DNA of 28,190 bases from positions 1 to 28,190 of IMG/VR virus record IMGVR_UViG_3300042391_000610; one strand, 5' to 3'. Position 1 is the stretch's first letter. Each line of letters begins with the position of its first letter. The notes beneath the pieces were generated by a model that saw nothing but the letters and a program-made list of their open reading frames with translations, was not told the origin of the DNA and searched no databases. Both the position numbers and the translations under genes were made by a program. Below are positions 18,764 through 24,873 of this stretch, one piece after another. Origin of the DNA: a virus.

Positions 18764-19003
18764 ATGATTATTATCGACAACGTCAACAACGACAATTTAC
18801 AAAAAGCGTTAAAGACATTAAAAAAGAAATGGCAGGATTCTAAGACGGTTGAGCAATTAAGAGATAGAAAATATTTCACAAAACCTTCTGCTAAAAAAAG
18901 AGTTCAAAAAGAAGCGGCAGTTAGAAAACAATTAAGAACATCTAAAAACGCAATTGAATTCTTAAATTTAAAACAAATTCCGAAAAAATTCATCGGACTT
19001 TAA
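18764..19003 (+). CDS. rpsU: Ribosomal protein bS21 homologue
   Basis: A 79-residue phage version of small-subunit protein bS21. The diagnostic region is NLQKALKTLKKKWQD followed by LRDRKYFTKPSAKKRVQKEAA, matching the bacterial pattern (RELRSRQxFTKPSxxRRxKK). The first 55 residues cover the conserved core, and a C-terminal extension ending IPKKFIGL differs from host proteins. bS21 sits near the anti-SD end of 16S rRNA on the 30S platform; in Bacteroidota it helps hide the anti-SD. Phage-encoded bS21 is known from many uncultured phages, where it is thought to replace the host protein late in infection. It lies directly upstream of the scaffold and capsid genes. The start is A-rich with no SD. 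Assignment is strong; effect on translation is inferred. Confidence 0.88.
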   Translation: MIIIDNVNNDNLQKALKTLKKKWQDSKTVEQLRDRKYFTKPSAKKRVQKEAAVRKQLRTSKNAIEFLNLKQIPKKFIGL

Positions 19004-19178
19004 TCGTTTTCTACAAAAAGTATATATGTATATTATATATTCTACATAATGTAGGATTTAATTTATTTAAGATACTCGATGAATACTCTATCTGATATAG
19101 AGTTCCGAAAGAATATCAAAATTCTATTTAAGCCGCCTAATCCTATAATGGCTTAACAAATCAAAAGGACATAAAGAA
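19004..19178 (+). promoter_or_regulatory. Structured leader of the scaffold-capsid transcript
   Basis: A 175-nt gap without a gene. It starts with an A/T-rich stretch holding a weak variant of the promoter-like box (TATATGTATA, 19023-19032). Four successive hairpins follow: 19042-19046 with 19050-19054 (5 bp); 19085-19091 with 19097-19103 (7 bp); 19110-19114 with 19121-19125 (5 bp); and 19128-19135 with 19149-19156 (8 bp including one G-T pair). An SD, AAAGGA at 19164-19169, comes 9 nt before the scaffold ATG. None of the hairpins is followed by a T-run, so they are not classic terminators. They may stabilise the mRNA or control translation. Confidence 0.5.
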
Positions 19179-20402
19179 ATGGCAAGTTCAAAATTATTGA
19201 AAGAAGCAATCGCTGATGCTAAAGCTGTTCGCGAAACTGCCTTGGCTAATGCTAAGATTCAGTTAGAAGAAGCTTTTACACCAAGATTGAAGTCTATGCT
19301 ATCTCAAAAGTTAAGAGCTGAAGCTGAAGACAAAGCATCTGATGAAGATGAAATGAAAGAAGCTTATGGTGATGACGAAGAGAAAGAAGAAGACAAAATG
19401 GAAGAAGATTACAACTCTTCTAACATTGGTGCTGGCAGTGGTGGTACAACATCAGGTCAGAACAACAAAAAACCAACCGAACACAACGCTGGTGCTGAAG
19501 ACAAATTAGGTGCAGCGGATGTTACATCGACTTCTAAAAAACCAGAAGCTGAAGTAGAAGATTACAAATTTGAAAAATCTATTACAGAAGAAAATGATGA
19601 AGAAGAAGAATTAGCAACCGAAGGTGATGAGTACGGTAATGATGACCAGCAACAACACGCTGAGCCAGATGCAGATAATGCAGGTGGTGCAAGTGATTAC
19701 GATGCTGATAATCAACAATCAGAAGATGACTTAGATTTAGAAGCAATCATTAAAGAGTTGGAAGACGAATTACATGGTGGTTCTGATGATATGGAATCAG
19801 AAGATGATTACAATGCAATGGGACATGATGATGTTCAAGATGAATCAGCTGATGAAGTTGATACAGTAATGAATGCAGATGAACCAGATGCGGTAATTGC
19901 TCGTAACGAAAGTGACGACAAAGATGAAGATGACGATATGAATATCGAAGAAATCATCAAAGAATTAGAAGATGAAGAAAAAGCTGAAGAAGAAGAAAAA
20001 GAGAAAGTAGAAGAATCAAAAAGATTGAAGAAAGAATTAGCAGAAGCTATTTCAGTAATCAAATCATTGAAATCTACAATCAATGAAGTAAACTTATTGA
20101 ACGCTAAATTATTGTTCTCTAATAAATTATTTAGAAGTTATAACTTAACTAACGAACAAAAATCAAAAGTAATTGATTCTTTAGATAGAACAAATACAGT
20201 TAGAGAAGTGAAACTTGTTTACTCAACATTAGCTGAATCTATGAAATTTGCAACTAACTCTCCAAAGAAGAGTTCTAAGCCAATGGCTGAAGGTGCAAGC
20301 AGAGTTCAGACTAGTACAAAACCAACAGCTCAAAAAGCAATCGTTAGCGAAGGTACAACTTACGCAAACAGATTTAAAGAGTTAGCTGGAATTTTAAAAT
20401 AA
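19179..20402 (+). CDS. gp22: Prohead scaffold core protein (T4 gp22 homologue)
   Basis: A 407-residue, extremely acidic protein that forms the internal scaffold of the prohead and is later digested by gp21. Asp/Glu-rich low-complexity blocks fill residues 45-290. The C-terminal third holds the conserved gp22-type helical region: KSLKSTINEVNLLNAKLLF, then FRSYNLTNEQKSKVIDSLDR and TVREVKLVYSTLAES. Possible protease sites occur at LKE-A (residue 9) and LEE-A (about residue 30). A strong SD precedes the ATG. It follows a structured leader and lies directly before the capsid gene, as in T4. At 407 residues it is longer than T4 gp22 (269), mainly from the acidic repeats. Confidence 0.9.
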   Translation: MASSKLLKEAIADAKAVRETALANAKIQLEEAFTPRLKSMLSQKLRAEAEDKASDEDEMKEAYGDDEEKEEDKMEEDYNSSNIGAGSGGTTSGQNNKKPTEHNAGAEDKLGAADVTSTSKKPEAEVEDYKFEKSITEENDEEEELATEGDEYGNDDQQQHAEPDADNAGGASDYDADNQQSEDDLDLEAIIKELEDELHGGSDDMESEDDYNAMGHDDVQDESADEVDTVMNADEPDAVIARNESDDKDEDDDMNIEEIIKELEDEEKAEEEEKEKVEESKRLKKELAEAISVIKSLKSTINEVNLLNAKLLFSNKLFRSYNLTNEQKSKVIDSLDRTNTVREVKLVYSTLAESMKFATNSPKKSSKPMAEGASRVQTSTKPTAQKAIVSEGTTYANRFKELAGILK

Positions 20403-20426
20403 CAAAAAAAATAAGGAAAAAACAAA

Positions 20427-22055
20427 ATGGCAAATTTTGATTTATCGAAACTTATGGAAGGCAAAAACCCAACATCTATTATGCTTGAGCAGACTAGAGG
20501 ATTAAAATCTAAGTGGGAAAAAACTGGTCTTTTAGAAGGAATAGACAACAAACCTCAACAACACGCAATGGCTGTGTTACTTGAAAACCAAGCAAAACAA
20601 TTGCTTGATGAAGCAACTGGAACAAGTACAACTGGTGGTTCTGAAGAATGGAGTGGCGTAGCTCTTCCATTAGTAAGAAGAATCTTTGGTGAAATCGCTG
20701 CGAAAGAATTCGTAAGTGTTCAACCAATGAACTTACCATCAGGTTTGATTTTCTACATGGACTTCAAATATGGTACATCAACAAACGGATTTACTAAGGG
20801 TGATTCTATCTATGGTAATTCTGGTGCAGTAGGTAAAGATTCTTTATCTCCAGCTGGTGACAAATTAGGTTCTACACAATCTCCAACAGGTGGTTTGTAT
20901 GGTGCTGGAAGATTTGGTTACACAGTTAATGATGCACAATCTTCATCAGTTGCAAATTTATGGTCAACATCTTCAGTATCTTTTGCTGATGTAAGCTATG
21001 ATAGTAACTTCGTTGCTACTGGTTCATACAAGAAAGTAACTGTGGGTATTCCTTCAGATGCTGATTTTAATGCAGTTAAAGCATTTACAATTGCTGGTGC
21101 ACAAATCACCGGTGATATTTATCCTCAATTTACAGCTATTAGTAGTACAAATGTAACTTTCATCACCAACGAGATAACTGGTATATTAACTGGTTCATTA
21201 GTGCTTAACTATGAAAAACAACCAACTGCAGCTAATAGAGGTGATTATGAAGATAGAGATGCAGATAGATTAAATGACGTTGCTGACGGAAATTCTTTGA
21301 ATATCCCTCAAGTTGACTTAGAATTGAAATCTGAAGCAATCGTTGCTAAGACTCGTAAGTTGAAAGCAGTGTGGACTCCTGAATTGGCACAAGATTTAAA
21401 CGCTTATCATTCAATTGATGCAGAAGCTGAATTAACTTCTATGTTATCTGAGTACATCTCTTTAGAGATTGATTTAGAAATCTTAGATATGTTAAAAGCT
21501 AACGCATTAACTACTGAATATTGGTCTTTAAAAGTTGGTCAAGAATGGAACGGTTCTGGATTCTCAATTGATTCTGATGTAGCTGCAGCTTCTGCATACA
21601 CAAGAAACACTTGGTTTCAAACTTTAGGTACTAAATTAAATAAAGTATCTAACAAAATTCACCAATTGACTATGAGAGGTGGTGCAAACTTTTTAGTAGC
21701 ATCTCCTGACGTATGTACAATCTTAGAATCAATTCCAGCGTTCTCTGTATCTGCTGATAAAGATGCTAAGCAATTTGCAGCTGGTGTAACTCAAGTAGGT
21801 TCTATTGCAAACAGATATACTGTTTACAAAAACCCTTACATGACTGAAAATGTAATCTTAATGGGTTATAAAGGAAATAACTTCTTGGAAACTGGTGCCG
21901 TTTACGCTCCTTACGTTCCATTGATTTTAACTCCTTTGGTTTACGATCCAGATAACTTCACACCAAGAAGAGGTGTTATGACTAGATACGCTAAGAAACT
22001 AGTTAGACCTGAATTCTTCGGTAAAGTTGTAATCGGTGACTTGAACTTATTATAA
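20427..22055 (+). CDS. gp23: Major capsid protein (T4 gp23 homologue)
   Basis: A 542-residue HK97-fold capsid subunit. Recognisable gp23 segments are PLVRRIFGEIAAKEFVSVQPM, then the most conserved ELAQDLNAYHSIDAEAEL (about residues 319-336), and the C-terminal end with YKGNNFLETGAVYAPYVPL, DPDNFTPRRGVMTRYAKK. T4 gp23 loses 65 N-terminal residues after LTE-A. Here LDE-A at residue 62/63 is an equivalent site, so the mature subunit would begin ATGTSTTGG. AAGGA (20413-20417) lies 9 nt before the ATG, consistent with strong expression. A terminator follows at 22079. Assignment is secure. Confidence 0.97.
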   Translation: MANFDLSKLMEGKNPTSIMLEQTRGLKSKWEKTGLLEGIDNKPQQHAMAVLLENQAKQLLDEATGTSTTGGSEEWSGVALPLVRRIFGEIAAKEFVSVQPMNLPSGLIFYMDFKYGTSTNGFTKGDSIYGNSGAVGKDSLSPAGDKLGSTQSPTGGLYGAGRFGYTVNDAQSSSVANLWSTSSVSFADVSYDSNFVATGSYKKVTVGIPSDADFNAVKAFTIAGAQITGDIYPQFTAISSTNVTFITNEITGILTGSLVLNYEKQPTAANRGDYEDRDADRLNDVADGNSLNIPQVDLELKSEAIVAKTRKLKAVWTPELAQDLNAYHSIDAEAELTSMLSEYISLEIDLEILDMLKANALTTEYWSLKVGQEWNGSGFSIDSDVAAASAYTRNTWFQTLGTKLNKVSNKIHQLTMRGGANFLVASPDVCTILESIPAFSVSADKDAKQFAAGVTQVGSIANRYTVYKNPYMTENVILMGYKGNNFLETGAVYAPYVPLILTPLVYDPDNFTPRRGVMTRYAKKLVRPEFFGKVVIGDLNLL

Positions 22056-22078
22056 TCTTTAAGAAAATAATAAAAATA

Positions 22079-22107
22079 GGAAAGGGGGTAGAAATACCTC
22101 CTTTTTT
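22079..22107 (+). terminator. Rho-independent terminator after the capsid gene
   Basis: Stem AAAGGGGGTA (22081-22090) pairs with TACCTCCTTT (22095-22104), ten pairs with one G-T, closed by a GAAA tetraloop. The T-run continues to 22107. It ends the head transcript 24 nt after the capsid stop. Confidence 0.9.
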
Positions 22108-22118
22108 ATGTCATTTTT

Positions 22119-22128
22119 TATATTTATA
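22119..22128 (+). promoter_or_regulatory. TATATTTATA box, candidate late promoter
   Basis: Exact copy 11 nt after the terminator T-run. It ends 38 nt before the ATG at 22167, giving a leader that contains AAGGA (22154-22158). Terminator and new promoter back to back make this the clearest promoter context in the window. Confidence 0.65.
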
Positions 22129-22166
22129 TTTGAACAAAAATAAAAACAAAAAAAAGGATTAATAAA

Positions 22167-22478
22167 ATGTCTAGAGTAAAAAGAATTTTCCCTGAATTAC
22201 CTGATGTAACTCCAGTAGCAGGAACAAAGATTTTAGTAACAGATGCAGAAAATTTCGCATTTGGATATGCAGATGTAAGTACATTACAAGTAACATTGGA
22301 TGGTACAGGTTTAGCAAGTGATGCTGCTTTGAGTGCAGTTAGTGCTTCATTTGCTTCAGTAAGTAGAGTATATAACATTAGTGGTAGTTTTGCAAATGAT
22401 GGTGCAGCAGCTGCAGCAAACATCCCAGTAGGTGGATTGTATCACACATCTGGTACAGTTAAAGTTAGATTATCATAA
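22167..22478 (+). CDS. Small virion-like protein in its own transcription unit
   Basis: A 103-residue, Ala/Ser-rich protein. It starts with SRVKRIFPELPDVTPVAGTKI, has a central low-complexity Ala/Ser helix (SDAALSAVSASFASVS), and ends IPVGGLYHTSGTVKVRLS, a C-terminal pattern I associate with small phage capsid or fibre-base proteins. No signal or membrane segment. It has its own promoter-like box, a strong SD (8 nt from the ATG) and a terminator right after it, a layout expected for a protein made in high amounts. A head decoration or similar virion part is the best guess; I do not recognise a characterised family. Confidence 0.7.
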   Translation: MSRVKRIFPELPDVTPVAGTKILVTDAENFAFGYADVSTLQVTLDGTGLASDAALSAVSASFASVSRVYNISGSFANDGAAAAANIPVGGLYHTSGTVKVRLS

Positions 22479-22496
22479 TTTAATTTGAATAATAAG

Positions 22497-22523
22497 AAAG
22501 GGAGTTTAGTTACTCCCTTTTTT
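22497..22523 (+). terminator. Rho-independent terminator
   Basis: Stem AAAGGGAGT (22497-22505) pairs perfectly with ACTCCCTTT (22512-22520), nine pairs around a 6-nt loop, with the T-run ending at 22523. It is followed by ATGTC as in the terminator at 22079, suggesting the two cassettes are related. Confidence 0.9.
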
Positions 22524-22531
22524 ATGTCGTA

Positions 22532-23611: not shown

Positions 23612-23621
23612 CATATTTATA
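23612..23621 (+). promoter_or_regulatory. CATATTTATA, one-mismatch copy of the promoter-like box
   Basis: Lies in the 32-nt gap before the neck gene, ending 13 nt before the ATG with AAGGA (23625-23629) between. One mismatch from TATATTTATA. Confidence 0.45.
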
Positions 23622-23634
23622 CAAAAGGAAAACA

Positions 23635-24873
23635 ATGGCATCAGATTTAGTAACTAATATTAATTGGCCCGGAAGCTCATCATTTACATATGGTTCAACT
23701 CCATTTGGTTTATATGAGAGTGAAAGTATATTTAGAGAGCACGCCGATAAAGTAAATGATTGGGTAGCTAAGAGATTAGGATATCCGGTTCAGAACGTAG
23801 AATTATTACCGGATAACATATATGCAGTATTTGAAGAATCAATTTCAGAATATTCTGCACAGGTAAACGCATTCAATATTCGTAACAACTTATACAATAT
23901 GTTGGGACACGATAATAGTAATAGTTTAACAAATACTTACATTGAAGGTGGAAATACAACACAGATAGTTACTATTGCAAATTCATATGGTTCAGAAATT
24001 GGATTAGGACCAGGTGCAACTGTTTACAAAGGACACGTTCAATTACATAGTGGAGTTCAAAGATATGATTTAAAAAACTTATCAGCGGTATCAGAAAGTT
24101 TAGTAAATGCAAGTGGACAACCATTTGCAACAATACCAAAAGGTGAATTAGAAAGTGGTTCTCATTATGGTGAAAATATTACAATTACAAGAATATACTA
24201 TACTGGAGTTCCGGCTATTAGTAGATTCTTTGACCCTTACGCAGTATCGGCAATAGGAACATTAAATTTAATGGATGAGTTTGGATTTAGTTCATTCTCG
24301 CCGGCAGCACAATTTGTATTAATGCCAATTTATGAGGATTTATTAAGAATACAAGCAATTGAATTTAATGACCAGGTTCGTAGAAGTGCATATACTTTTA
24401 ATTTGGTAAACAATGTATTAGAAATATTCCCAATTCCTGGTTCATCAACATATAATCCAACTCTTTTATGGTTTGAGTATGTAATTACCGATGAAAGAAT
24501 TGAGGCAAGTATGATTCATAAGCCAAACGTAATTAGTAGTTATGCAAATATTAGATATGATAATATGACATACGCTTCTATTAATTCAGTTGGTAAACAA
24601 TGGATATGGAAATATACTCTAGCATTAGCAAAAGAATTATTAGGGGGTATTAGAGAAAAGTATGCAAGTATTCCAATTCCGGAAGGTGAAATTTCATTAG
24701 ATGGTGCAAGTTTAAGAGCGGAAGCACAAAATGATAAAGATAGATTATACGAACAATTAAGACAAGATTTAGAAGAACTTAGTAGACCAAAACAAATGGA
24801 ATACAAAGCACAGGAAGCTGAGCAAGTTCAAAAAATGTTAAAGAATATTCCATTACCATTTTATATAGGATAA
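23635..24873 (+). CDS. gp13: Neck protein (T4 gp13-like)
   Basis: A 412-residue protein assigned to the neck/head-completion group by sequence character and gene order before a gp14-like gene. It has PFGLYESESIFREHADKVNDW near the start, GYPVQNVELLPDNIYAVFEE, a beta-rich middle, and FFDPYAVSAIGTLNLMDEFG then QWIWKYTLALAKELLGGIREKY. The C-terminal helix is charged (ERLYEQLRQDLEEL-type). In T4, gp13 and gp14 join the portal to the tail and close the packaged head. It is longer than T4 gp13 (309), with the additional length probably in the central beta region. It has an SD 5 nt before the ATG and leads a tight run of neck and tail genes. Confidence 0.8.
   Translation: MASDLVTNINWPGSSSFTYGSTPFGLYESESIFREHADKVNDWVAKRLGYPVQNVELLPDNIYAVFEESISEYSAQVNAFNIRNNLYNMLGHDNSNSLTNTYIEGGNTTQIVTIANSYGSEIGLGPGATVYKGHVQLHSGVQRYDLKNLSAVSESLVNASGQPFATIPKGELESGSHYGENITITRIYYTGVPAISRFFDPYAVSAIGTLNLMDEFGFSSFSPAAQFVLMPIYEDLLRIQAIEFNDQVRRSAYTFNLVNNVLEIFPIPGSSTYNPTLLWFEYVITDERIEASMIHKPNVISSYANIRYDNMTYASINSVGKQWIWKYTLALAKELLGGIREKYASIPIPEGEISLDGASLRAEAQNDKDRLYEQLRQDLEELSRPKQMEYKAQEAEQVQKMLKNIPLPFYIG

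Follow-up and report, generated by a model that had tools for sequence, protein, structure and literature searches.

The stretch of DNA considered here, and called the window, is a 28,190-base IMG/VR virus record (IMGVR_UViG_3300042391_000610; G+C content 30.7%) in which a gene for ribosomal protein bS21 stands close to core structural genes and on the same strand as them. Bacteroidota hide their anti-Shine-Dalgarno (anti-SD) sequence, and the original prediction was that a phage bS21 could alter or free it, with SD-bearing mRNAs for structural proteins being preferentially translated late in infection. That the gene encodes a bS21 homologue is secure, as its product matches Ribosomal_S21 (Pfam PF01165) at E 1.3e-13 with 46 bits, the curated cut-off being 27, and its best solved relative is the bS21 of Flavobacterium johnsoniae in 7jil (E 1.6e-7).

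Tyr54 of bS21 is uniquely conserved in Bacteroidia and stacks on A1534 of the 16S rRNA (PMC9976891). The window protein aligns to F. johnsoniae bS21 with no gap from the KPS motif to position 54, and there Tyr is replaced by Arg. In an alignment of 60 phage sequences (some contigs are represented twice) with the F. johnsoniae reference, which supplies one Tyr, the 61 residues at this position are Arg in 50, Tyr in 6, Lys in 3, and His and Val in one each. The nearest bacterial relatives, taken as the top 80 bacterial hits of a search with the Arg54 bS21 alignment, have Tyr54 in 80 of 80; other phage contigs with an F. johnsoniae-like bS21 have Tyr in 20 of 21 and His in one. Staphylococcus aureus bS21 has Lys at position 54, likewise basic, and this was counted in favour of the interpretation developed below. 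Judged by sequence, the window protein would lack the aromatic stacking on A1534 by which Bacteroidia bS21 masks the anti-SD, and across the aligned phages the loss of Tyr54 is lineage-wide, not sporadic. The C-terminal extension to which the original prediction had drawn attention (..IPKKF..) is, by alignment, common to the window lineage, L013 and L016, and missing from the sister lineage. The bS21 gene itself has no SD (upstream free energy, dG, -1.8 to -2.6). Phage-encoded bS6 or bS18 partners were found in none of 20 relatives.

The scale used for SDs is our own nearest-neighbour sum, with no initiation penalty, against ACCUCCUUUCU, the tail of F. johnsoniae 16S rRNA; pairing of -6.7 kcal/mol or better at a spacing of 4–13 nucleotides was called an SD, and shuffled upstream windows were the null. 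By this measure 39% of genes in the window have an SD, against 10% in the shuffled upstream windows. AAGGA or AAAGGA lies 5–9 nucleotides before the ATG of the scaffold, major capsid protein (MCP), 22167 and neck genes, just as had been described, and the genes earlier listed as SD-less are indeed without a usable one. A split in which late genes have SDs and the others none was too clean: the named SDs are real, but seven further genes have SD-like motifs (9144, 11417, 14745, 15894, 17320, 24878 and 25333, some within the preceding gene), and the late genes for TerL, portal and prohead protease have none. Because the window is packaging and structural module nearly throughout from 9788, it cannot alone contrast late with early genes, and a late-versus-other comparison within it was dropped as a test.

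Table 1. Features of the window and of its scaffold leader RNA in relatives (nt, nucleotides; aa, amino acids)
Feature	Position	Strand	Basis and remarks
TerL gene	9788		PHROG match
Portal gene	11959		PHROG match
Endolysin gene	15894		PHROG match
Prohead protease gene	16739		PHROG match
bS21 gene, 79 aa	18764..19003	+	PF01165 and 7jil bS21 matches; Bacteroidota-like N-terminal half; without own SD
Codon 54 of bS21, Arg in place of Bacteroidota Tyr54	18923..18925	+	gap-free alignment from KPS motif
bS21 C-terminal extension (...IPKKFIGL)	18950..19000	+	alignment
bS21–scaffold gap, 175 nt, conserved structured leader RNA	19004..19178	+	alignment, covariation
Leader core	19071..19117	+	stem 19071-19077/19111-19117, internal loop GAUGAAU/UUCCGAAA, hairpin 19085-19091/19097-19103; helices 1 and 2 covary
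Leader second hairpin	19129..19155	+	stem 19129-19134/19150-19155 (helix 3); all cells paired, compensatory change in 4/6 pairs
Scaffold SD, AAAGGA	19164..19169	+	9 nt spacing; conserved in window lineage and most of sister lineage
Prohead scaffold (core) protein gene	19179..20402	+	position between protease/bS21 and MCP; homology to same-place immuto gene
MCP SD, AAGGA	20413..20417	+	9 nt spacing
T4-like MCP gene, gp23 family	20427..22055	+	phrog_138, E 4.6e-76; 51% to immuto MCP
Late-promoter-like ATATTTATA before gene 22167	22120..22128	+	motif enrichment
Gene 22167 SD, AAAGGA	22153..22158	+	8 nt spacing
Small late gene 22167, function unassigned	22167..22478	+	open reading frame
ATATTTATA then directly AAAGGA, neck gene	23613..23629	+	SD spacing 5 nt
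Head–tail adaptor (neck) gene	23635..24873	+	phrog_211, E 8.3e-12
ATATTTATA boxes upstream of late genes	4426, 11382, 13861, 17624, 22120, 22533, 23613		motif enrichment
Leader RNA in relatives	L222:16145-16280, L359:7814-7945, L092:18716-18837		covariance model

In relatives, gene starts come from a simple gene caller of our own. The SDs of the MCP, scaffold and neck genes persist across the window lineage, whose late-region records have 33–44% SD genes where 9–12% is expected; for the cultured Flavobacterium phages ‘immuto’ the figures are 5% and 6%. The tail sheath gene lies outside the window; in the window and L016-like lineages all 55 contigs with a readable start (our own count, duplicates removed) have AAGGAG or AAAGGAG in its leader, against 0 of 22 in the sister lineage and none in immuto. 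Tube leaders follow the same pattern. When ortholog clusters from nine window-lineage records were required to have both a conserved SD and a clear upstream gap, those retained were sheath, tube, MCP, scaffold, neck, a 549–561-amino-acid gene between tail genes and a 50-amino-acid gene before the helicase. It may be added that GGAGGA precedes this small gene, the helicase being DnaB, and that in the L016-like lineage RecA has a strong conserved SD (AAAAAGGAG; G019, L337-L346, and G020, L347-L352); SD use is therefore not confined to late genes.

Genome-wide SD statistics by gene class, suggested at the outset as a check, gave an answer that varies with the genome. With late blocks and cut-offs set after some data had been seen, and p values therefore descriptive, in-gap SDs in late versus other genes number 5/14 versus 7/58 in G018 (p 0.048), 10/36 versus 6/67 in G019 (p 0.014) and 4/14 versus 3/101 in G006 of the sister lineage (p 0.004), a late excess, and 5/31 versus 8/43 in G020, 2/18 versus 2/76 in sister-lineage G005 and 1/15 versus 4/111 in G021, none of these significant; immuto has 0/21 versus 5/80.

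Might the SDs be no more than leftovers from SD-using hosts, with the phage bS21 serving as a supply or replacement part, either for completeness of the 30S subunit or for displacing host bS21 against autoregulation, and SD reading left as it was? A strong SD, present before many host rpsU genes, is missing from the phage ones, which therefore appear to escape rpsU autoregulation, and the outer lineages on the MCP tree are mostly SD-positive, so that the SD may be ancestral. (F. johnsoniae-type phage bS21 genes, L094-L114, are also without a strong SD, unlike many bacterial rpsU genes.) However, AAGGAG is perfectly kept in A/T-rich sheath leaders although the proteins that follow are only about 58–60% identical, which calls for present selection, and a Tyr54 loss that runs through a lineage does not suit a mere spare part. 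This explanation is considered quite unlikely.

What is proposed instead begins with phage bS21 being made from an SD-less mRNA, which unmodified host ribosomes could read. It would then take the place of host bS21 on some of the 30S subunits and, having Arg in place of Tyr54, would not stack on A1534, so that the anti-SD would remain exposed, as it is in the Y54A mutant of F. johnsoniae; ribosomes carrying it would favour SD-bearing phage mRNAs, chiefly those for MCP, scaffold, tail sheath and tail tube. We infer the incorporation into 30S subunits, the freeing of the anti-SD and the preferential translation. Another phage bS21, that of HTVC008M, is incorporated into Escherichia coli ribosomes (as cited in PMC9976891). 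In F. johnsoniae the Y54A substitution increases output of a strong-SD reporter by 70% in vivo and, in vitro, gives 3-fold more protein from an SD template; deletion of the C-terminal part of bS21 likewise raises translation of strong-SD reporters (PMC9976891). That Arg54 phage bS21 frees the anti-SD and in this way favours the SD-marked genes for high-copy virion proteins is put forward tentatively, as somewhat short of probable. The original idea is helped by the loss of Tyr54, by conserved SDs on the genes for the most abundant virion proteins where the rest of the genome has few, and by the SD-less state of the bS21 gene; its restriction to late mRNAs does not stand.

Several points weigh against the proposal. 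The sister lineage has an Arg54 bS21, yet its only conserved gap SD is at the scaffold, and this scaffold SD is kept in two phages, L052 and G021, in which no bS21 was found. The L016-like lineage has conserved SDs on RecA and DnaB as well, plus small genes. L013 has an extended Arg54 bS21 but no MCP SD, and the distant Tyr54 lineage G013 is SD-rich. The phage SDs, at -7.7 to -11.2 kcal/mol on our own scale, are weaker than that of host rpsU (below -13; PMC9976891). Finally the MCP-SD trait changes 3 times on the MCP tree, leaving an independent-pairs or association test under-powered, and with only these changes no statistical link between bS21 and SDs is demonstrable. A simple rule that Arg54 explains SD use was tried and fails on the sister lineage and G013. 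Dependence of the scaffold SD on bS21 was likewise set aside, our own count being 21 with the SD and 6 without it where bS21 is present and 2 and 2 where it is absent, which is not significant. As an observation in its own right, sister-lineage phages without detectable bS21 but with the head module intact are L353-L364 (G021, 245 kb), L020, L025 and L052, and among them the scaffold SD is kept in some and lost in others. One reading that fits most of the facts is that Arg54 alone is insufficient and that the extension matters, L013 being the exception. The finding is thus stronger than it first appeared with respect to Arg54 and the SDs of abundant virion genes, and weaker with respect to dependence on bS21; the link between the two is plausible, a proposal rather than a demonstrated dependence.

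Could the SDs be read without any help from the phage protein? Bacteroidota ribosomes without bS21 initiate better on SD mRNA (PMC9976891), and either the natural subpopulation of these, perhaps growing in number as host synthesis stops, or the ribosomes of a host lineage with a partly masked anti-SD might suffice, with the phage bS21 a separate adaptation. The scaffold SD that persists in L052 and G021 fits well with this, as do the RecA and DnaB SDs of the L016-like lineage, which need not await a late protein, and the SDs on some ribosomal genes in several Bacteroidia. It sits badly with immuto, grown on Flavobacterium, where none of the 21 late genes with a gap has an SD, and with phages having a Tyr54 bS21 of F. 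johnsoniae type, which show no SD enrichment. Also, the phage SDs are far weaker than those of rpsU, and the non-late genes of long related records, including those of the window lineage, are near chance level for SDs; the host is therefore not a general SD user. On balance unaided reading is regarded as unlikely.

The gap between bS21 and scaffold holds an undescribed structured RNA that is conserved and covarying and has no Rfam match. Its length, 168–199 nucleotides where bS21 is present, and its structure are kept across both lineages. RNAalifold with 24 sequences gives 19 pairs, 11 of them with compensatory changes, and in a three-helix structure drawn by hand both partners have changed in 12 of 20 pairs, a figure that drops to 1–5 when partners are slid by 1–3 columns; its covariation score is 0.43, against at most 0.18 in the slid controls. 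The leader sequences being related, shuffles alone would overstate covariation. Folded singly, the window leader is not unusually stable (z -1.37). With a covariance model, no record shows more than one copy, which lies ahead of the scaffold gene; the model's matches extend to Microcystis phage Mel-JY01 (E 1.7e-5) and L090 (0.00096), and L078, L091, L068 and L089 match less well at the corresponding position, which is no more than suggestive. Searched against Rfam 15, the window leader matches nothing at E up to 10, and four relatives give nothing at gathering score. The leader is present whether or not bS21 is, and so goes with the scaffold gene. An invariant UAUU before the second hairpin and AAUA inside it could form a pseudoknot. 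The S6:S18 (rpsF) leader RNA (PMC4647458) also has a hairpin and, close to the start codon, a loop containing CC, and its ligands are the partners of bS21 in anti-SD masking; the CC in the internal loop here recalls it, which is only a lead, as the likeness is one of loop letters alone and the window leader has no Rfam match. A bolder version of the proposal, in which the clade makes dedicated SD-reading ribosomes, with which the few SD-bearing phage mRNAs outcompete SD-less host mRNAs, and the scaffold gene adds its own leader RNA, is conceivable and rather doubtful.

A Bacteroidota host, which the original prediction presupposed, is well supported. Every one of the top 80 bacterial hits obtained with the Arg54 bS21 alignment comes from Bacteroidota. 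In intergenic regions of the window lineage TTTG-N17-21-TAnnTTTG, the bipartite Bacteroidota -33/-7 promoter, occurs 13 times versus 0.5 expected (L016-like lineage, 33 versus 0.6; sister lineage, 17 versus 0.4), and it is present in 6 of 6 related window-lineage records that extend beyond the late block. There is none within the window itself; this absence means little, because none was found in immuto either and its host is Flavobacterium. Promoters and bS21 affinity together point to the Bacteroidota. The distant T4-like G013 (L237-L241), L084 and L086, with Tyr54 and SD-rich genes, had no Bacteroidota promoters found.

A late-promoter-like ATATTTATA occurs 67 times versus 2.9 expected in the window lineage and is also found in immuto and the sister lineage. 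Judged from its positions, transcripts for 4438 and 17638 would be nearly leaderless, and the neck SD may sit at the very 5′ end of its mRNA, next to ATATTTATA. Two terminator-like hairpins flank gene 22167, at 22078-22110 (AAAGGGGGT..ACCTCCTTTTTT) and 22496-22527 (AAAGGGAGTT..ACTCCCTTTTTT), each followed by TTTATGTC[A/G]T and then a ATATTTATA box. As the neck-gene motif comes directly after the late-promoter-like TATTTATA, the AAGGA(G) motifs might be thought to serve transcription or mRNA stability and not as SDs. For the sheath and 22167, however, the promoter-like box is at least about 24 nucleotides upstream of the motif, there is none near the scaffold or MCP motif, and an SD-like spacing to the ATG (4–10 nucleotides) is found in unrelated leaders, so that this explanation is very improbable.

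The window is best explained as the packaging and head region of a T4-like phage that infects Bacteroidota. PHROG matches in the window are to TerL, portal, endolysin, prohead protease, bS21, gp23-type MCP and neck/adaptor; PHROG searches with the scaffold gene and gene 22167 gave no match. The order TerL, portal, prohead protease, scaffold and gp23-type MCP is that of a T4-like head module, the scaffold being placed by position and immuto homology. The nearest annotated phages by MCP include Mel-JY01, with an annotated RpsU at the same place as the window bS21, and immuto, in which bS21 was looked for and not found.

Of all ribosomal proteins bS21 is the one that phages encode most often, and the question touched on is why. 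A Tyr54-less phage bS21 alongside a few SD-marked virion genes offers a concrete and testable case of specialised ribosomes, and nature provides a series: Tyr54, Arg54 short, Arg54 with the extension, and no bS21. That a virus retunes host ribosomes in its own favour is suggested, and unproven.

How does this compare with known systems? Flavobacterium phage vB_FspM_immuto (MW353175) shares the T4-like head module order and an MCP 51% identical, and differs in that bS21 was not found in it and its late genes lack SDs. F. johnsoniae bS21 (PMC9976891) shares with the proposal the control of SD reading by Tyr54 and the C-terminal part. It is, however, a host protein that autoregulates its own rpsU via an exceptionally strong SD, unlike the phage bS21 gene, which has no SD and whose proposed targets have moderate ones. 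The phages of Chen et al. 2022 (PMC9723584) also have Bacteroidota hosts and bS21 near capsid, prohead protease, portal and terminase genes, and for them co-expression with late genes and ribosome takeover were already proposed. The broad idea of a phage bS21 retargeting Bacteroidota ribosomes late is thus prior art, in that paper and in PMC9976891. Late-gene SDs like those described here were not found reported in the portion of the Chen et al. text consulted; the bS21 genes there are antisense to the structural genes and 61 of 61 phage bS21s have an aromatic residue 54, whereas here the strand is the same and the residue is Arg. The phage contigs with F. johnsoniae-like bS21 agree with that aromatic rule. 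What is new is that most syntenic phage bS21s have Arg54, which limits the published rule of an aromatic residue at this position in phage bS21.

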